A stretch of DNA of 47,290 bases from Pigoraptor vietnamica (lineage: Eukaryota; Opisthokonta; Filasterea), in the NCBI GenBank assembly GCA_943704525.1, contig CALSCQ010000373.1, forward strand, positions 1 to 47,290. Reading direction: 5' to 3'. The position numbers and the translations under genes were made by a program. Below are positions 30,501-47,290 of the stretch, piece after piece (position 1 is the stretch's first letter; the number at the start of each line of letters is the position of its first letter). Below the pieces are notes generated by a model that did no database searches, was not told the origin of the DNA, and saw only the letters and a list, made by a program, of their open reading frames with translations.

Positions 30501-32341
30501 GACGGAGAACGATCCCTTCAGAGTCTCCAGCGCGGGCAGGCCGCCGATTGTGGCGAGCTTCGCGTTTCCCCGCACCTCGAAATCGCCGCCGATGGTCTGC
30601 AGCGCCGCAAGATTCGTTCTGTCGATCGCAAGCAGCGCGGGATTGTCCTTGAACGAGAGGCTGCCGCCGTCGGCAGTCCAGCTGAGGCGCTCGAGACCCG
30701 CAACCGACAACAGCGACGGGCAGCTGTCCACAACCAGGCCGCGAATGTACGTCGCCGACGACAGCGTCGTGAGGTTGCGAATGGCGAGTCCCGACAGGCG
30801 CACGGCAGCGCCGATTGTGTCGTACCCGTCAAACAGCGAAAATTGGTCCAGCTTTGGGCTCGAGATGATCTCAATGCTCGGAATGTCGGGCATGGCGCCA
30901 AGCGCAGAGGAGATCGGCCCGTTGATGGCGCGCAAGTTGCCATTGTTGCGGATGAAAAGACCGCCCGTCACTTGCTCGAGACGGGCGAGATCGCCGCGCG
31001 CAATCGAAACGAGGTTGTCGTTCGTGTCGATGATGAGTGGCCCGTAGACAGTCCGCAGGGACGCGAGACCGGTGAGGTTCGTCAGCTTGCTGTTCACGTT
31101 GATCGTGAGGCCGACCCTATAGTCAGTGTCGCCACTCGCGACTTCCGGCGACGCAACCGTCTGGAGCCCGGCGAGTCCGTTGACGTTGCGCAGTAGCGAG
31201 TTTGTGCTGATGAGAAGGCCCATGGTCGTCGACGCCAGCGACGCGAGGCCATCGATCGTCTCGAGGCGGTCGTTGTTTGAGATGGAGCAGTAGTGCTGGT
31301 TTGGACCCGCGCACGCGACCCCTGTAAGCGCACGAAAGCCAGANNNNNNNNNNNNNNNNNNNNNNNNNNNNNNNNNNNNNNNNNNNNNNNNNNNNNNNNN
31401 NNNNNNNNNNNNNNNNNNNNNNNNNNNNNNNNNNNNNNNGTCGTCGACGCCAGCGACGCGAGGCCATCGATCGTCTCGAGGCGGTCGTTGTTTGAGATGG
31501 AGCAGTAGTGCTGGTTTGGACCCGCGCACGCGACCCCTGTAAGCGCACGAAAGCCCGAAATGCGCGCGAGGGCAGGGTTGTCCGTGATGATGAGAGGGCC
31601 GCACCCGATGAACTCTGCGACGGGGAAGCCGGCAATTTCGGAAAGCAACGAGTTCCCGCGGATCCACACGCGCGGCCCAAAATACCTCTGATCGCCCCGC
31701 AACCAAGAGTACGTGTCGTACGAGCACACCGTCGTGGGACTGCCTTGTAACAACTGGTCGAGTTGTGCACGAAGGCGCAGGTCGCAGCCGATGAGCGTGA
31801 GCGCTGGGAAGCCGTCGACGCGCGTGAGCACGGGGTTGTCGGTTATTTGGATGCCGCCCAAACGCACGAGCTTCGGGAGCGCGGTCGAATTGAGGACGGC
31901 AATGTTGGACTGGCGAATGATGAGGCGGCCCGTAATCTCCTCGCAGTTTGCGAGTGCGTTTAGGTCGTTGAGGCTTGTGACAACGCGATCGCCCGTGCAG
32001 ACATCCGCCCTCGCAGCACCACCTGAGTCGCATCCGTCACAATAATCAGTATTGCGTGCTCACGACAGTGATCAGCCGATCATTCAGTTACAGTACTCAG
32101 TACACAATTGAACTGATCAGCACGTGAGAAAGACAAATGTCAGCGGCCGCCGGATTGATGGCTCCGTCGAGCCGTCAAGCCCCTTCTAATTCTTTGCTTA
32201 CAAATCTAAGCAGTTATACGGCACGCCATAGCGAGTCAGGTCGAGCTCGAGGCGTCCCGGCTGATACTCGGTGATGCACTTACCGAGGAGGCAGAGAGCA
32301 ATTGTTAAAACGGCTGCGACTGCCACGCCGTCACGGGCCAT
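27513..32341 (-). CDS. Secreted leucine-rich / receptor-L-domain-like protein with Cys-rich, Thr/Pro and PLAT-like regions
   Basis: Exon 1, 32341-32284, encodes the signal peptide MARDGVAVAAVLTIALCLL and ends at a canonical GTAAGT. Exon 2 runs 32022-28781, and exon 3 28144-27513 follows a 636-bp intron (GTGAGT, CGTCAG). Exon 2 is interrupted by 96 N. Removing 215 bp of duplicated flank plus N makes the three exons in frame, with 1238 residues. Exon 2 holds many irregular leucine-rich units (DNPALxxIxGFPALTxIG type) like L domains of receptor ectodomains, then a Cys-rich knot (CDPSCATCTTAADSGC) and three VTVTPPPVT-containing repeats. Exon 3 is Ser/Thr/Pro-rich and ends in a PLAT-like domain (ATYTIVVVTPNSDGAGTSGP, then WRFQRTGIDVGTLVSLKV). 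No membrane segment is seen, so it is probably secreted or wall-bound. Ligand unknown. Confidence 0.82.
28145..28780 (-). other. Long intron of the L-domain gene
   Basis: A 636-bp intron, by far the longest I can define here. It contains a GT-rich patch (28275-28370), a run of about 14 T near 28636-28650 and an AT-rich donor end. No nested gene is recognised. Confidence 0.75.
28917..29100 (-). repeat. Coding tandem repeat, three Thr/Val/Pro units
   Basis: Three near-identical units of about 63 bp encode VPVTVTPPPVTVTASVTVTT-type sequence, a probable extended, possibly O-glycosylated stalk in the L-domain protein. Confidence 0.9.
29541..30017 (-). repeat. Internal duplicated leucine-rich block, copy A
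   Basis: 476 bp between matching landmarks, nearly identical to 31110-31801 (copy B) once the false duplication in B is discounted. The copies differ at scattered bases (for example gcgaccgtc/gcaaccgtc, aaccacgag/aaccaagag), concentrated near 29950-30000. This indicates a recent internal duplication or gene conversion. Confidence 0.9.
31110..31801 (-). repeat. Internal duplicated leucine-rich block, copy B (contains the assembly gap)
   Basis: Same landmarks as copy A but 691 bp instead of 476. The excess of 215 bp equals the 119 bp repeated on both sides of the gap plus the 96 N. Confidence 0.9.
31344..31439. other. Assembly gap (96 N), apparently false
   Basis: The 119 bases before the gap (31225-31343) match the bases after it (31440-31558) except at the last few positions (agccaga/agcccga). 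The two contig ends therefore probably overlap rather than being separated. Confidence 0.9.
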
Positions 32342-40505: not shown

Positions 40506-43282
<2,777 letters not shown>

Positions 43283-44304
43283 GCGTCTGTGTGTGTGTGC
43301 GTACTTGCGATGTTTACCAATGCGCCGCACCAACAGTTCTGTGCACACGAGCGATCGTCGCCCTTCGTTCCACTCGTTTCGGCACCGCGGACGCCTTCTC
43401 TTTGGCGTTCCCACAACGGCGCCCGTAGAGACACAGTCGAGCTGAACGTTCGTCTGGCAACCCGCGTGTGTGCGTGCGTGCGCTGCGTTGCGTGCTAATC
43501 AACAAATTGATGATGCCCATCCGAACTCGCCGCCTTTTTGACTTCGTTGAGGAGCAGTCTCAGGTGTGTCAATTACTTCGTCGTCTTCGCGTCTAGGGTC
43601 AAAACATGAGTTCTGCGTCTCTCGTCATCTAATGTCCCGGCAGTGGTCGCTCCGAACCACCTGAGAACAGAGGCCGCAACTGAAGCACAAATGTTTGTTT
43701 GAGCAATTGTGATGAAGGCGACTGATGCACCGTTACGGTGTGTTGCCAGCTAGGGATATACGCGCACAGCCCGTGGACCCACGTCCGTGAGCCGAACAGT
43801 GTGGTCGGGGGTACTCACAGCCGCCCGCGCCTCGGCCGGCGCCGGCGTGCATGCCGGCGCGTGTCGTCTCGTCGGTTCTCACTGTGCGACCATCTTCGTC
43901 GCCCGCGGCATGCCTCGGTGCCGTAGTTAGGGCGGCAGGGCCACAACACCGACGGCGAGCGGGGCGAGCGCCAGTGACTGATGATGCAGCCGGGTCTCAG
44001 AGTGCCTGAGCCGAGTGTGACGGACCGTGCCAGTGTCATGTCACCACACAATTGATAAGTAATCTGCGACACATCTGATTGGACAATGGCCCGCCATCTA
44101 CTATTCGCTCCTGCCAAACTAAGTCTGACATGGACCCGTTTTCAATACTCAATTGTGCATCCGGACCAACAGTAATTGCCCGTCACCCAACGTCAACAAT
44201 TTCCCACTGAGCGACCCGAAAACGCCGCCGGCTGCGTCGGCTGCCTCGCCAACCTGCAACGGAATCAACCGAAGAAGGGCGACATCACGAGTCAGCAGCC
44301 CCAA
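43283..44304. other. Region without a recognised gene
   Basis: The missing DH exon should lie here on the minus strand, but I find no DH-like peptide in any minus frame between 43283 and 43700. A GC-rich hairpin (gcgccggc...gccggcgc) sits near 43840-43861. From about 44176 the plus strand is open in the frame of the next gene, but the first ATG is at 44305. Confidence 0.55.
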
Positions 44305-45297
44305 ATGGAGAGAAGGATGGAAGAAATCCACGACATCGGCAGCGCCGGCGCGCCGTCGCCGTTTGAGGAGGATGACGACGTGACGGAAGCGGGCGAGAGC
44401 CGCGACGACGGCCTGCGAGTGCCGGTGGTTACGCCTTCGCTGCCGATGGCGGCGACTGCAGATGACGGCGTCAGCGAGAGCCTGTCGAACACGGCACCCC
44501 CTGCAACAGACGGGAGGAACGGCATCAGGAGCGCGCATGACATCAACAACGCCGAGACCGTCGCGGAGCCGGCCCCGTCGGCCGTTCCGGCCGCCGCGGG
44601 TTCTGATGGCAGCGTCGACGATGTGACGCAAAAAATGGCGAACCTGGCGGTGACAGAAGCGGAGAAAGAGAGCAGCAAACGCGCCGAGAGCGACACAAAG
44701 ACATTGGGGCGCAACGGCGCGCATGGCGACAAGGTCATCATCAACACCGAGATAGCCGAGTCGCCGGTGGCCCCGGCGGGTTCTGATGACGGCGGCGTCG
44801 ACAGCGCGACGCAGGAAATGGCGAAAATGACAATGGGGGAGGCGGGCAGCAGTCGCCCCGAGAACGTCGCGAAGACATTGGCGCCTCCGCCGAAGGATGA
44901 CAAGGACAAGGCGCATGCCTCCGAGCTCGGCGACAGGGACGACGAGGACGACGAGAACTTTGGGCGACGTGATCTTAACCCCACATTCGATGCGGAAGTT
45001 GACGGCGCTCCCATACCGACAACCGCGGCCAGCGTCCGCGCTCCGCGGTCTCCCGCCGTGCCCGCCGCCGACCCGTTCTGGATGCCGGCGTTCTTCAAAA
45101 CCGAAGAAGAGTATGACCGAAAGGCGAGCGAAATCGCTCAGCTGCTTACGGCAACGAAATTCAAGCATAAGAAACCGGCCGACGGAAAGTACAAGGGCGC
45201 TACACCGGTGAAGGCGTCCGGGAGCACACCATTCCGCAAAGAGGACGGATTCTTCCCCAAGGGGCAAAATGAGGACGATCCTGTCACCGAGTCGTCG
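44305..45297 (+). CDS. Acidic N-terminal part of a TAGT-like/OTU protein (gene interrupted by an inversion)
   Basis: Open frame from ATG at 44305; the frame itself is open from 44176 but only with non-ATG codons. It encodes an acidic, low-complexity region with an imperfect internal duplication (AGSDGSVDDVTQKMANLAV versus AGSDDGGVDSATQEMAKMTM), an acidic cluster DRDDEDDENF and then a less biased segment (ADPFWMPAFFKTEEEYDRKA). At the right breakpoint the frame passes TCG TCG and soon meets a stop at 45310-45312. That last stretch is antisense-derived rather than native. The same frame is shared with the piece from 45798 on and with the turned-round segment between. No domain is recognised in this part. 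The N-terminus could mediate protein contacts or nuclear retention, but that is a guess. Confidence 0.65.
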
Positions 45298-45805
45298 ATC
45301 TGCCAAACGTAGTCGAGCCCGAGCGCGTGCGCGACGAGAACGATGACGTGGCGCGCCTCGCTGATGTTGCCCTCGTCGGTCGGCAGTACGGCGATGATCG
45401 CCTCGTTGCCCCAGAAGGCAAAGTACGCCTGAAACTGGCGCGGCTTGACGACGAGAATGCGCCGGTCGCCGGCGGCAATCGGCATCGCCTTGCTGTATTC
45501 GAGGTAGCCCTTGTCGGCGCGTTCGTAGGACGGAACGAATATCCAGTGGCGCAGCTGGTTCGCCATTGGCTCGAAGCGGCGTTGCGACCTCACATTCACT
45601 TCGTCCGGCCGACCGTCGACGCGCTCCGTCTCGAAGAGGTGAAGCAGGCGGGCTGGTATCGTGAGGCGGACGTCCGTGTCCACGTCGGCGAGGCGAATCC
45701 CAACGTGTCCTATCCAAACTCTCCCCGGAGAGTGATCTCGACGGTTGCGACGTCCGCGCGTCATCTCGGCATTGATCGGCGACAGCGACTTCCCCAACGA
45801 CGACT
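45290..45805. other. Apparent 0.5-kb inversion inside one gene, with 8-bp inverted match at the breakpoints
   Basis: AGTCGTCG at 45290-45297 and CGACGACT at 45798-45805 are exact reverse complements. Flanking pieces on the plus strand are in the same frame, and the segment between them falls in that frame when turned over. Both junctions lie within codons (TCG TCG; GAC GAC) that are in frame in both partners. The overlaps of oppositely oriented open frames at 45138-45312 and 45745-45845 are then explained as antisense spill-over. Confidence 0.8.
45298..45797 (-). CDS. First half of a TAGT/GREB1-like glycosyltransferase domain, on the inverted segment
   Basis: The minus strand is open from 45845 to 45138; the part between the breakpoints carries the protein-like signal. 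It has VWIGHVGIRLADVDTDVRL, then HWIFVPSYERADKGYLEY, RRILVVKPRQFQAYFAFWG, AIIAVLPTDEGNISEARHVI and GLDYVWQIDD. This strand order, with I(F)VPSxxRA, a VVKPxQxxxY strand, an LPxxxGIxxAR segment and a final xWxIDD acidic pair, fits the TET/JBP-associated glycosyltransferase (TAGT) fold shared with the GREB1 C-terminus, a GT-A-like enzyme with Asp near the nucleotide-sugar site. The domain stops at its acidic motif; the remainder is on the plus strand from 45798. Assignment rests on motif order recalled from the family, not on a search. Confidence 0.6.
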
Positions 45806-47199
45806 TTGTGCTGTCCTGGCGGGGATCGACGCTGAACGCGCACACGGACCTTTACCTTGGCGATGGTAAATGGTTGCGCATAACGTTGTTCGAAGCGCTG
45901 AAGCTACTGGAGAGGATCGCGCGGCGCTTTGACGCCGCGAAGGTTGGCCAAAAGGGGGCCCCCGCGGGCTTCAGCGTTCTTGGCATGGCGACCGCTCGCG
46001 GCGCAAGAAACAAAATCAAGACAATGATCTCGTACGGTAACGTGTACGGCATCGTTCTTACGAACGTTCGCGACCTCATCAAGCGGAATGTGAACTACCG
46101 CTTCGTACCCGAGAATCCCGAATTTCGGGAGGATATCGACCTCATCAATGGCGCAGCGAAAGCCGCCGAACCCCTGTGGCCCATCAAGGTCAGTTGCCTT
46201 CGTTTTCAGGACTCAACCCGGCTGCGAGGCGGATGCGAATTCGTCAAGCCCGACACAAGTTTGCCGACGAGCAATGACGACGAAGGCAAGGCGGGTGACG
46301 AGGACGCGACGATGAGCAACGACGACGAAGGCAAGACGGGTGACGTGGACGCGACGACGAGCAACGACGACGAAGGCAAGGCGGGAGACGAGGACGCGAC
46401 GACGAGCAACGACGACGAAGGCAAGACGGGTGACGTGGACGCGACGACGAGCAACGACGACGAAGGCAAGGCGGGTGACGAGGACGCGACTACGAGCAAC
46501 GACGACGAAGGCAAGACGGGTGACGAGGACGCGACGACGAGCAACGACGACAAGGGCAAGACCCCGATCTACAACAAGAAGGGCGAGACCCCGATCAGCA
46601 ACGCCAAGGGCAAGACTCCGGCTGCCAAGAAAAGCTCGACCGGCAAGACTCCGCGCACGTTCAACGCCAGCATCACAGCCTCGGCCGTGAAGCGCCTGAT
46701 GGGCTACACGGTCGTACTCACAACTGAGGGCGCGCGTTTCGAGACGGAGGAGGAGGGCAAAAGCGTGCCGAATGGCTTTGATCGCGTCGTTGTCGACGGA
46801 GACGGGAACTGCCAGTTCACCGCGGTGGCGATCGCCCTCGGGGGTCTGACGACGGGGGACGTCCGCGAACGTGGAGAAGAACTTCGCCGAGCCGCCGCGG
46901 AACACATTCGCGCCAATGCGCAGGCAATTCAAGGGTGGTTGACGGTACCGGTGAACGACTACGCCGCCGAGATCGAGCGCGACGGGGTGTGGGGCGATGA
47001 GGTGACGCTGTGGGCGCTCGCGGTGGTGATCCGACGCAGAATCAACGTCTACAACCTCCTCGGAAATGTCACGGCTCGCATGGACCCAACCACCGTTGCC
47101 GGCGCAGAGACTGTTTCCGTGTTGTTCACGGGCAATCACTACGACGCGCTCGTCCGTACGTCCCACAGGGGCCCTTTCTCCCCGAACGCCGACAGATAA
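45798..47199 (+). CDS. Second half of TAGT-like domain, acidic repeats and OTU cysteine protease domain
   Basis: The plus-strand frame to the stop at 47197-47199 starts at the breakpoint with DDFVLSWRGST. It continues with the expected second half of a TAGT-like domain: LRITLFEALKLLERIARRF, GFSVLGMATARG, YGIVLTNVRDLI, VNYRFVPENPEFREDIDLIN and RLRGGCEFV. A repeat block (SNDDEGKxGDxDAT) and Lys/Thr/Pro linkers follow. The C-terminal OTU domain, about 150 residues, has the catalytic segment VVVDGDGNCQFTAVAIALGG with nucleophile Cys, a conserved DxVWGDEVTLWALA region and NHYDALV supplying His. All catalytic elements are present, so it could be an active deubiquitinase. Pairing a possible base- or protein-glycosylating domain with a deubiquitinase in one chain is unusual. 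Confidence 0.75.
46266..46560 (+). repeat. 45-bp coding tandem repeat, about 6.5 units
   Basis: Units of agcaacgacgacgaaggcaa plus 25 more bases encode SNDDEGKAGDEDATT and SNDDEGKTGDVDATT in near-strict alternation, ending in an SNDDKGKTP variant and related NKKGETP/NAKGKTP units. Likely a flexible acidic spacer between the TAGT-like and OTU domains. Confidence 0.95.
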
Positions 47200-47290
47200 T
47201 TGCGTCTCGCGTTCGGGCAAACTGCGTTGGCAGTCGCGTGCAAAGCGTCCGCGTACATCACTGAACAGAAAAGAAAGCAGGGGGGCGGGG
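47200..47290. other. Short 3' flank and scaffold end
   Basis: Downstream of the OTU stop; ends in a G-rich run. The first bases of the window are also a run of G. No telomere repeat is seen. Confidence 0.5.

Follow-up and report, generated by a model that had tools for sequence, protein, structure and literature searches.

A predicted TAGT glycosyltransferase-OTU protease gene of Pigoraptor vietnamica interrupted by an apparent in-frame inversion of about 0.5 kb

The window analysed here is the whole stretch of 47,290 nucleotides of contig CALSCQ010000373.1 from the filasterean Pigoraptor vietnamica, whose assembly comprises 32.5 Mb in 1395 contigs. Neighbouring frames of the gene described below matched the Pfam profiles of carbamoyl-phosphate synthase and FYVE, of RhoGEF and TPX2, and of the bromodomain, which marks the genome as eukaryotic. 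The frame matching RhoGEF includes a long repeat (42755-43414) coding for ...THTHTH..., which is possibly an intron. The sole run of N in the window (31344-31439, 96 bases) lies within a minus-strand frame of 1087 residues that had no Pfam match at E up to 0.01. Near the end of the contig, at 44305-47199, is the gene of interest, which holds a GREB1-type TAGT glycosyltransferase domain and an OTU protease domain and ends 91 bases from the contig end.

Three open frames make up this gene. The upstream plus frame begins with the ATG at 44305 and continues as far as 45309, the stop at 45310-45312 coming next; on the minus strand an ORF runs from 45845 down to a stop at 45138-45140; and the downstream plus frame is open again over 45745-47196, with its stop at 47197-47199. 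The upstream piece (44305..45289, plus strand) provides the start codon and an N-terminal region of low complexity that is probably disordered; its frame is favoured by codon bias and no Pfam family was found in it above the cut-off. It is followed by the left arm of an 8-bp inverted match (45290..45297, plus strand, AGTCGTCG), which gives a DD motif when read on the minus strand. The inverted segment (45298..45797, minus strand, 500 bases) encodes a linker and the N-terminal half of the TAGT domain up to that DD motif, as indicated by the Pfam model PF20691, by a profile of five relatives and by a codon bias that is mostly that of the minus strand. The right arm (45798..45805, plus strand, CGACGACT) is the reverse complement of the left one and gives a second DD on the plus strand; both arms were located by direct search. 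Downstream, all on the plus strand, are the C-terminal half of TAGT (45806..46254; 14-17 bits with the five-relative profile), with FRED at a position occupied by FRED or WED in the relatives, an acidic linker with 45-bp tandem repeats (46265..46562; 6.6 copies, 92% match, Tandem Repeats Finder) that joins the TAGT part to the OTU part, and the OTU cysteine-protease domain (46720..47196).

An earlier note on this DNA had claimed that the halves of a single domain lie head to head on opposite strands, and the domain searches bear this out. PF20691 (TET-associated glycosyltransferase, TAGT) matched the minus piece with 35 bits (cut-off 27.5), covering positions 3-93 of its 205. This model missed the C-terminal half on the plus strand, both when the translated piece was searched at E up to 1 and when the genome was searched at E up to 10; the latter search did recover both halves in two paralogues. 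The five-relative profile, composed of these two same-genome paralogues and of three proteins from a protein search, one of them from Guillardia theta, matched the minus piece over positions 59-172 of 371 with 50 bits and the plus piece over positions 252-325 with 14 bits. Among the 463 stop-free stretches of at least 60 residues in the six frames of the window these two were the only ones above the inclusion threshold, and the third scored 1.5 bits. When the plus half was cut at 45799-46254 it reached 17.4 bits, the best of 2000 shuffles reaching 3.2. The C-terminal half of TAGT is present on the plus strand. The two profile ranges are complementary, do not overlap and are ordered as for one domain, the N-terminal half stopping at the DD motif; in the assembled sequence the whole TAGT domain is nowhere on one strand in one frame. 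Neither piece matches positions 173-251 of the profile, a stretch whose length differs from one of the five relatives to another, and the profile therefore leaves the right breakpoint unfixed.

The three pieces also share one reading phase. Codons of the minus piece start at positions divisible by 3 and, when mirrored about 45290+45805, come to lie in the frame set by 44305, the one that the downstream plus piece uses as well. By this arithmetic the total is 965 codons including the stop, in agreement with the chain of about 964 residues from the ATG at 44305 predicted in the earlier note.

In both same-genome paralogues (C1299 and C274) the two halves of PF20691 share a strand, within frames 2204 and 2054 residues long that also hold the cpSF2-GREB1 domain (PF20692), and the three relatives from the protein search are likewise colinear for their TAGT halves. 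The frames carrying cpSF2 and TAGT are unbroken (L013:1072-7215 in C274; L011:2436-5600, continuing in L012:3-3542, in C1299), unlike the profilin and the many kinase matches of this genome, which are split into same-strand pieces, as by introns. The profilin exon resembled plant-type profilins most and those of Acanthamoeba less, which spoke against Acanthamoeba as the source. It would be conceivable that the two halves at our locus are two separate genes, or decayed remnants, head to head by ancestry; the DNA is GC-rich, so that long frames arise by chance on either strand (the window has 232 ORFs of at least 80 aa), and a part of the profile is covered by neither half. Against this, the halves complement each other without overlap, no third TAGT match rose above the threshold, the three pieces keep one phase and the paralogues are colinear. 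Relatives with the halves as separate, oppositely oriented genes, which the earlier note had named as the finding that would speak against an inversion, did not appear; what we found were the two colinear paralogues. Ancestral separateness is the least probable of the explanations considered here. The searches for an orthologue of the fusion, of limited reach, returned none, and the probable ancestral orientation is deduced from the paralogues.

Codon usage also changes strand, close to both of the claimed breakpoints. The codon score was trained on seven other long frames of the genome (6896 codons, two of the frames without a clear Pfam match) and the tested gene was left out. The plus frame was ahead up to 45240, the minus frame at 45300-45600 and at 45720, and the plus frame again from 45840, whereas at 45660 a different plus frame led. 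At 46800 and 46860 the antisense frame narrowly led although the OTU domain is on the plus strand, and therefore single windows of this score should not be over-read. In a likelihood scan in which stops were counted as -6 each, the best inversion pair reached 82.1 log units, the pair 45290/45805 reached 77.1 and the uninterrupted plus frame 18.5; the inversion model is thus ahead of the uninterrupted frame by about 64 log units at best and by about 59 at 45290/45805.

In the same scan the optimum for the left breakpoint lay at 45280-45282 (within 3 log units, 45247-45312) and that for the right breakpoint at 45751 (support interval 45737-45849), the pair 45290/45805 being 4-5 log units below the best pair. 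Synonymous codon use over 45751-45797 was indecisive (plus 5.1, minus 3.8). On the minus strand the family motif extends past the arm, DDSVT resembling DDNVA (+3.8 bits), which would suit a left breakpoint nearer 45280; by eye, the plus-strand DDFV also resembles the family motif. The exact breakpoints are less certain than was first claimed, and the 8-bp match does not pin them.

As to the match itself, each arm contains two Asp codons in the coding frame of its own piece (minus 45291-45296, plus 45799-45804). Moreover, a GTG lies two bases past both arms, which brings the match to 11 of 13, with an in-phase +1/-1 score of 9. The frequency with which so good a match arises by chance depends on how well the breakpoints are assumed to be known: among 2000 random pairs 500 nt apart a match of at least 8 was seen 4, 22 or 105 times when they were taken as known to within 8, 12 or 20 nt, respectively. 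With the wider uncertainty left by codon bias, about 19-20% of draws contained a match this good in any phase, and about 6% of 600 draws contained one in the given phase. The 8-bp match alone is therefore only modestly beyond chance. The exact inverted match announced in the earlier note is present and in phase, but as a marker of the breakpoints it carries less weight than stated there, another pair being 4-5 log units better and the chance of such a match in phase being about 6%. A second 8-bp inverted match at 45293/45824 was ruled out as it is out of phase. No longer inverted repeat was found at both breakpoints among the 25 longest, all imperfect, of the 125 pairs in 44000-47290.

We also asked how rare such an arrangement is in the window and in a larger sample of the genome. 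The window contains 1650 inverted matches of at least 8 bp that are 200-1500 bases apart, and with plus-strand flanks tested the match at 45290/45798 is the sole one that has at least 250 open codons to either side and encloses a segment open in the inverted orientation alone. At a threshold of 100 codons there are 12 inverted-only cases, which also belong on the side of separate genes with chance frames. Open frames are cheap because the DNA is GC-rich, and 104 of 305 candidate pair-frames were open when inverted; open-frame counting as sole evidence was accordingly rejected as too weak. When the codon score was applied to both strands, the pair 45290/45798 narrowly led the 12,099 inverted pairs of a 267,819-base sample (0.142, the next being 0.133). 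The next-best candidate, C1372:57095-58942, could be an adjacent gene in antisense orientation.

That the glycosyltransferase-OTU gene is split, relative to the ancestral arrangement, by an in-frame inversion of about 0.5 kb is well supported because the complementary domain halves, the colinear paralogues and the strand change in codon bias all point to it. We are inclined to suggest that it is a recent chance microinversion in the sequenced genome that broke the gene, a reading to which we give a probability of about one half. A single TAGT glycosyltransferase-OTU protease gene would have had its segment at about 45290-45805 turned round, probably at a short inverted match through template switching or the repair of a break. 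The flip would be recent since all three pieces are still open, although undecayed frames are equally expected of an artefact. The allele would be dead for the glycosyltransferase because in the upstream frame the fifth codon after the left arm is a stop, and a whole domain is found on neither strand. A comparable, if much smaller, kind of event is described in a human-chimpanzee study (PMC8755829), which lists 59 microinversions of 17-33 nt, each with inverted repeats of 3-75 nt at its flanks. These events share with the present flip the inverted matches of a few bases at the edges and need no dedicated enzyme. They are far shorter than the present segment of about 516 bp and have the other orientation in an orthologue, whereas at our locus only paralogues have it. 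Should the flip prove real, one gene has been broken by an inversion of half a kilobase at a match of just 8 bp.

The inversion could also have arisen in the laboratory or in the computer, the gene being intact in the organism and the flip coming from chimeras that formed by folding back at the short inverted match while the whole genome was amplified, or from the joining of contigs. This is a serious possibility to which we give somewhat less than even odds. Multiple displacement amplification (MDA) is known to make such joins: in a study of MDA from a single cell (PMC1855051), 406 of 475 mapped chimeras were inverted, most with complementary stretches of 2-21 nt and with a frequency declining with distance, and according to PMC3142133, MDA raised inversions by two orders of magnitude in a human genome. 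The chimeras described in PMC1855051 resemble our flip in the inverted joining of nearby segments at short complementary stretches, but as presented there they typically have one junction and an intervening deletion, whereas at our locus both junctions are present and the phase is kept. The undecayed frames, the fragmentation of the assembly and the closeness of the gene to the contig end would fit an artefact. A single chimera has one junction, and since both are present two events would be needed; nevertheless, both junctions would in our inference also result from fold-back switching that starts from either side of a single inverted match. The earlier note had argued from the two-sided join against a simple one-sided chimera; both junctions are indeed there, and an amplification artefact by fold-back from either side would still be compatible with them.

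Two scans addressed artefacts of a more general kind. In 276,736 bases there were 222 exact inverted matches of at least 16 bp within 5 kb, of which a low-complexity filter dropped 217 and left 5; no long fold-back palindromes were found in these bases, the longest inverted match left by the filter being 24 bp. The second scan used protein kinases as a sample (150 listed of 151 matches, with 121 of 681 candidates scored). These formed 115 clusters, 28 of them with more than one match, and the neighbouring pairs were on the same strand in 34 cases and on opposite strands in one, which we read as two genes as its members are 2.3 kb apart and have overlapping profile ranges. Complementary halves on opposite strands were found in none of the 115 clusters, a count of modest power, since a second half that matches weakly may miss the E limit. 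Both results speak against the amplification or joining artefact in so far as they make a general assembly artefact less likely; a local artefact remains compatible with them. If the flip is an artefact, it is a warning that an inversion can cut a gene model, which ordinary gene finding would then record as separate genes.

The inversion could, in principle, be a reversible one that acts as a gene switch, brought about by a recombinase or by programmed rearrangement. Both junctions are in phase, the flip is two-sided and the short inverted match encodes DD on both strands, as a switch might have it. Scrambled ciliate genes have pointers of 3-19 bp and inverted segments (PMC2394655), so that short matches could serve in principle; our locus resembles them in having a reverse coding segment bounded by a short match, but differs in that its pieces are not separated by eliminated sequence, and among the 115 kinase clusters no further scrambled gene was found. 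Moreover, the arms are only 8 bp, no longer repeat lies at the ends among the 25 longest of the 125 pairs, no recombinase family was found in the 24 window translations scanned, and the locus occurs in the assembly in one copy and one orientation. The literature entries listed for invertible segments in protists concerned bacteria. We therefore regard a switch as very unlikely. The more specific idea, that a nuclear coding segment of a eukaryote would flip back and forth at a very short match and so turn a predicted nucleic-acid glycosyltransferase-OTU protein on and off, is to our mind a little less probable still. The in-frame inversion of about 0.5 kb which the earlier note had left as mutation, switch or artefact stands; the switch gained no positive evidence, and all that was observed can be accounted for without controlled turning on and off.

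The combination of TAGT with OTU is of separate interest, as it would join a predicted nucleic-acid glycosyltransferase to a predicted deubiquitinase. The downstream piece matched the OTU family (PF02338) with 41.5 bits (cut-off 23.3). Among solved structures the plus piece had weak OTU matches and the inverted piece had none; the OTU part aligned with the OTU1 chain 4boq (E 2.9e-4, residues 21-147 of 159), its Cys and His positions matching up with those of the chain and DGDGNCQF and NHYD falling within the alignment. The positions of these two motifs are presumably those of the catalytic Asp, Cys and His of an OTU protease, the protease activity being predicted.

GREB1 proteins and related TAGT glycosyltransferases (PF20691 with PF20692) have in common with the present gene the TAGT domain with its DD motif. 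They differ in that the GREB1 proteins have cpSF2, a circularly permuted SF2 helicase, before TAGT, whereas here OTU comes after TAGT, the domain is split, and PF20692 was not matched in any of the three pieces at E up to 1. The combination of TAGT and OTU in one gene without the cpSF2 helicase is unusual. A search with the plus piece (484-residue query), in which the 7999 candidates sharing most words were scored, gave no full-length relative of the fusion among proteins of about 266-847 residues, a range that an intact protein of about 964 residues would exceed; a search with the inverted piece at padded length gave none among 234 candidates. Close relatives of the inverted piece were confirmed neither in viral contigs (2 pattern matches) nor in bacterial and archaeal genomes (14 pattern matches). 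A literature search on this combination surfaced one paper, which deals with deltaproteobacterial single-cell genomes. A stretch like the 46265-46562 linker, with 47% identity, occurs in another frame of the genome (L014, C1358:16476-16748), and the likeness is probably one of low complexity only.
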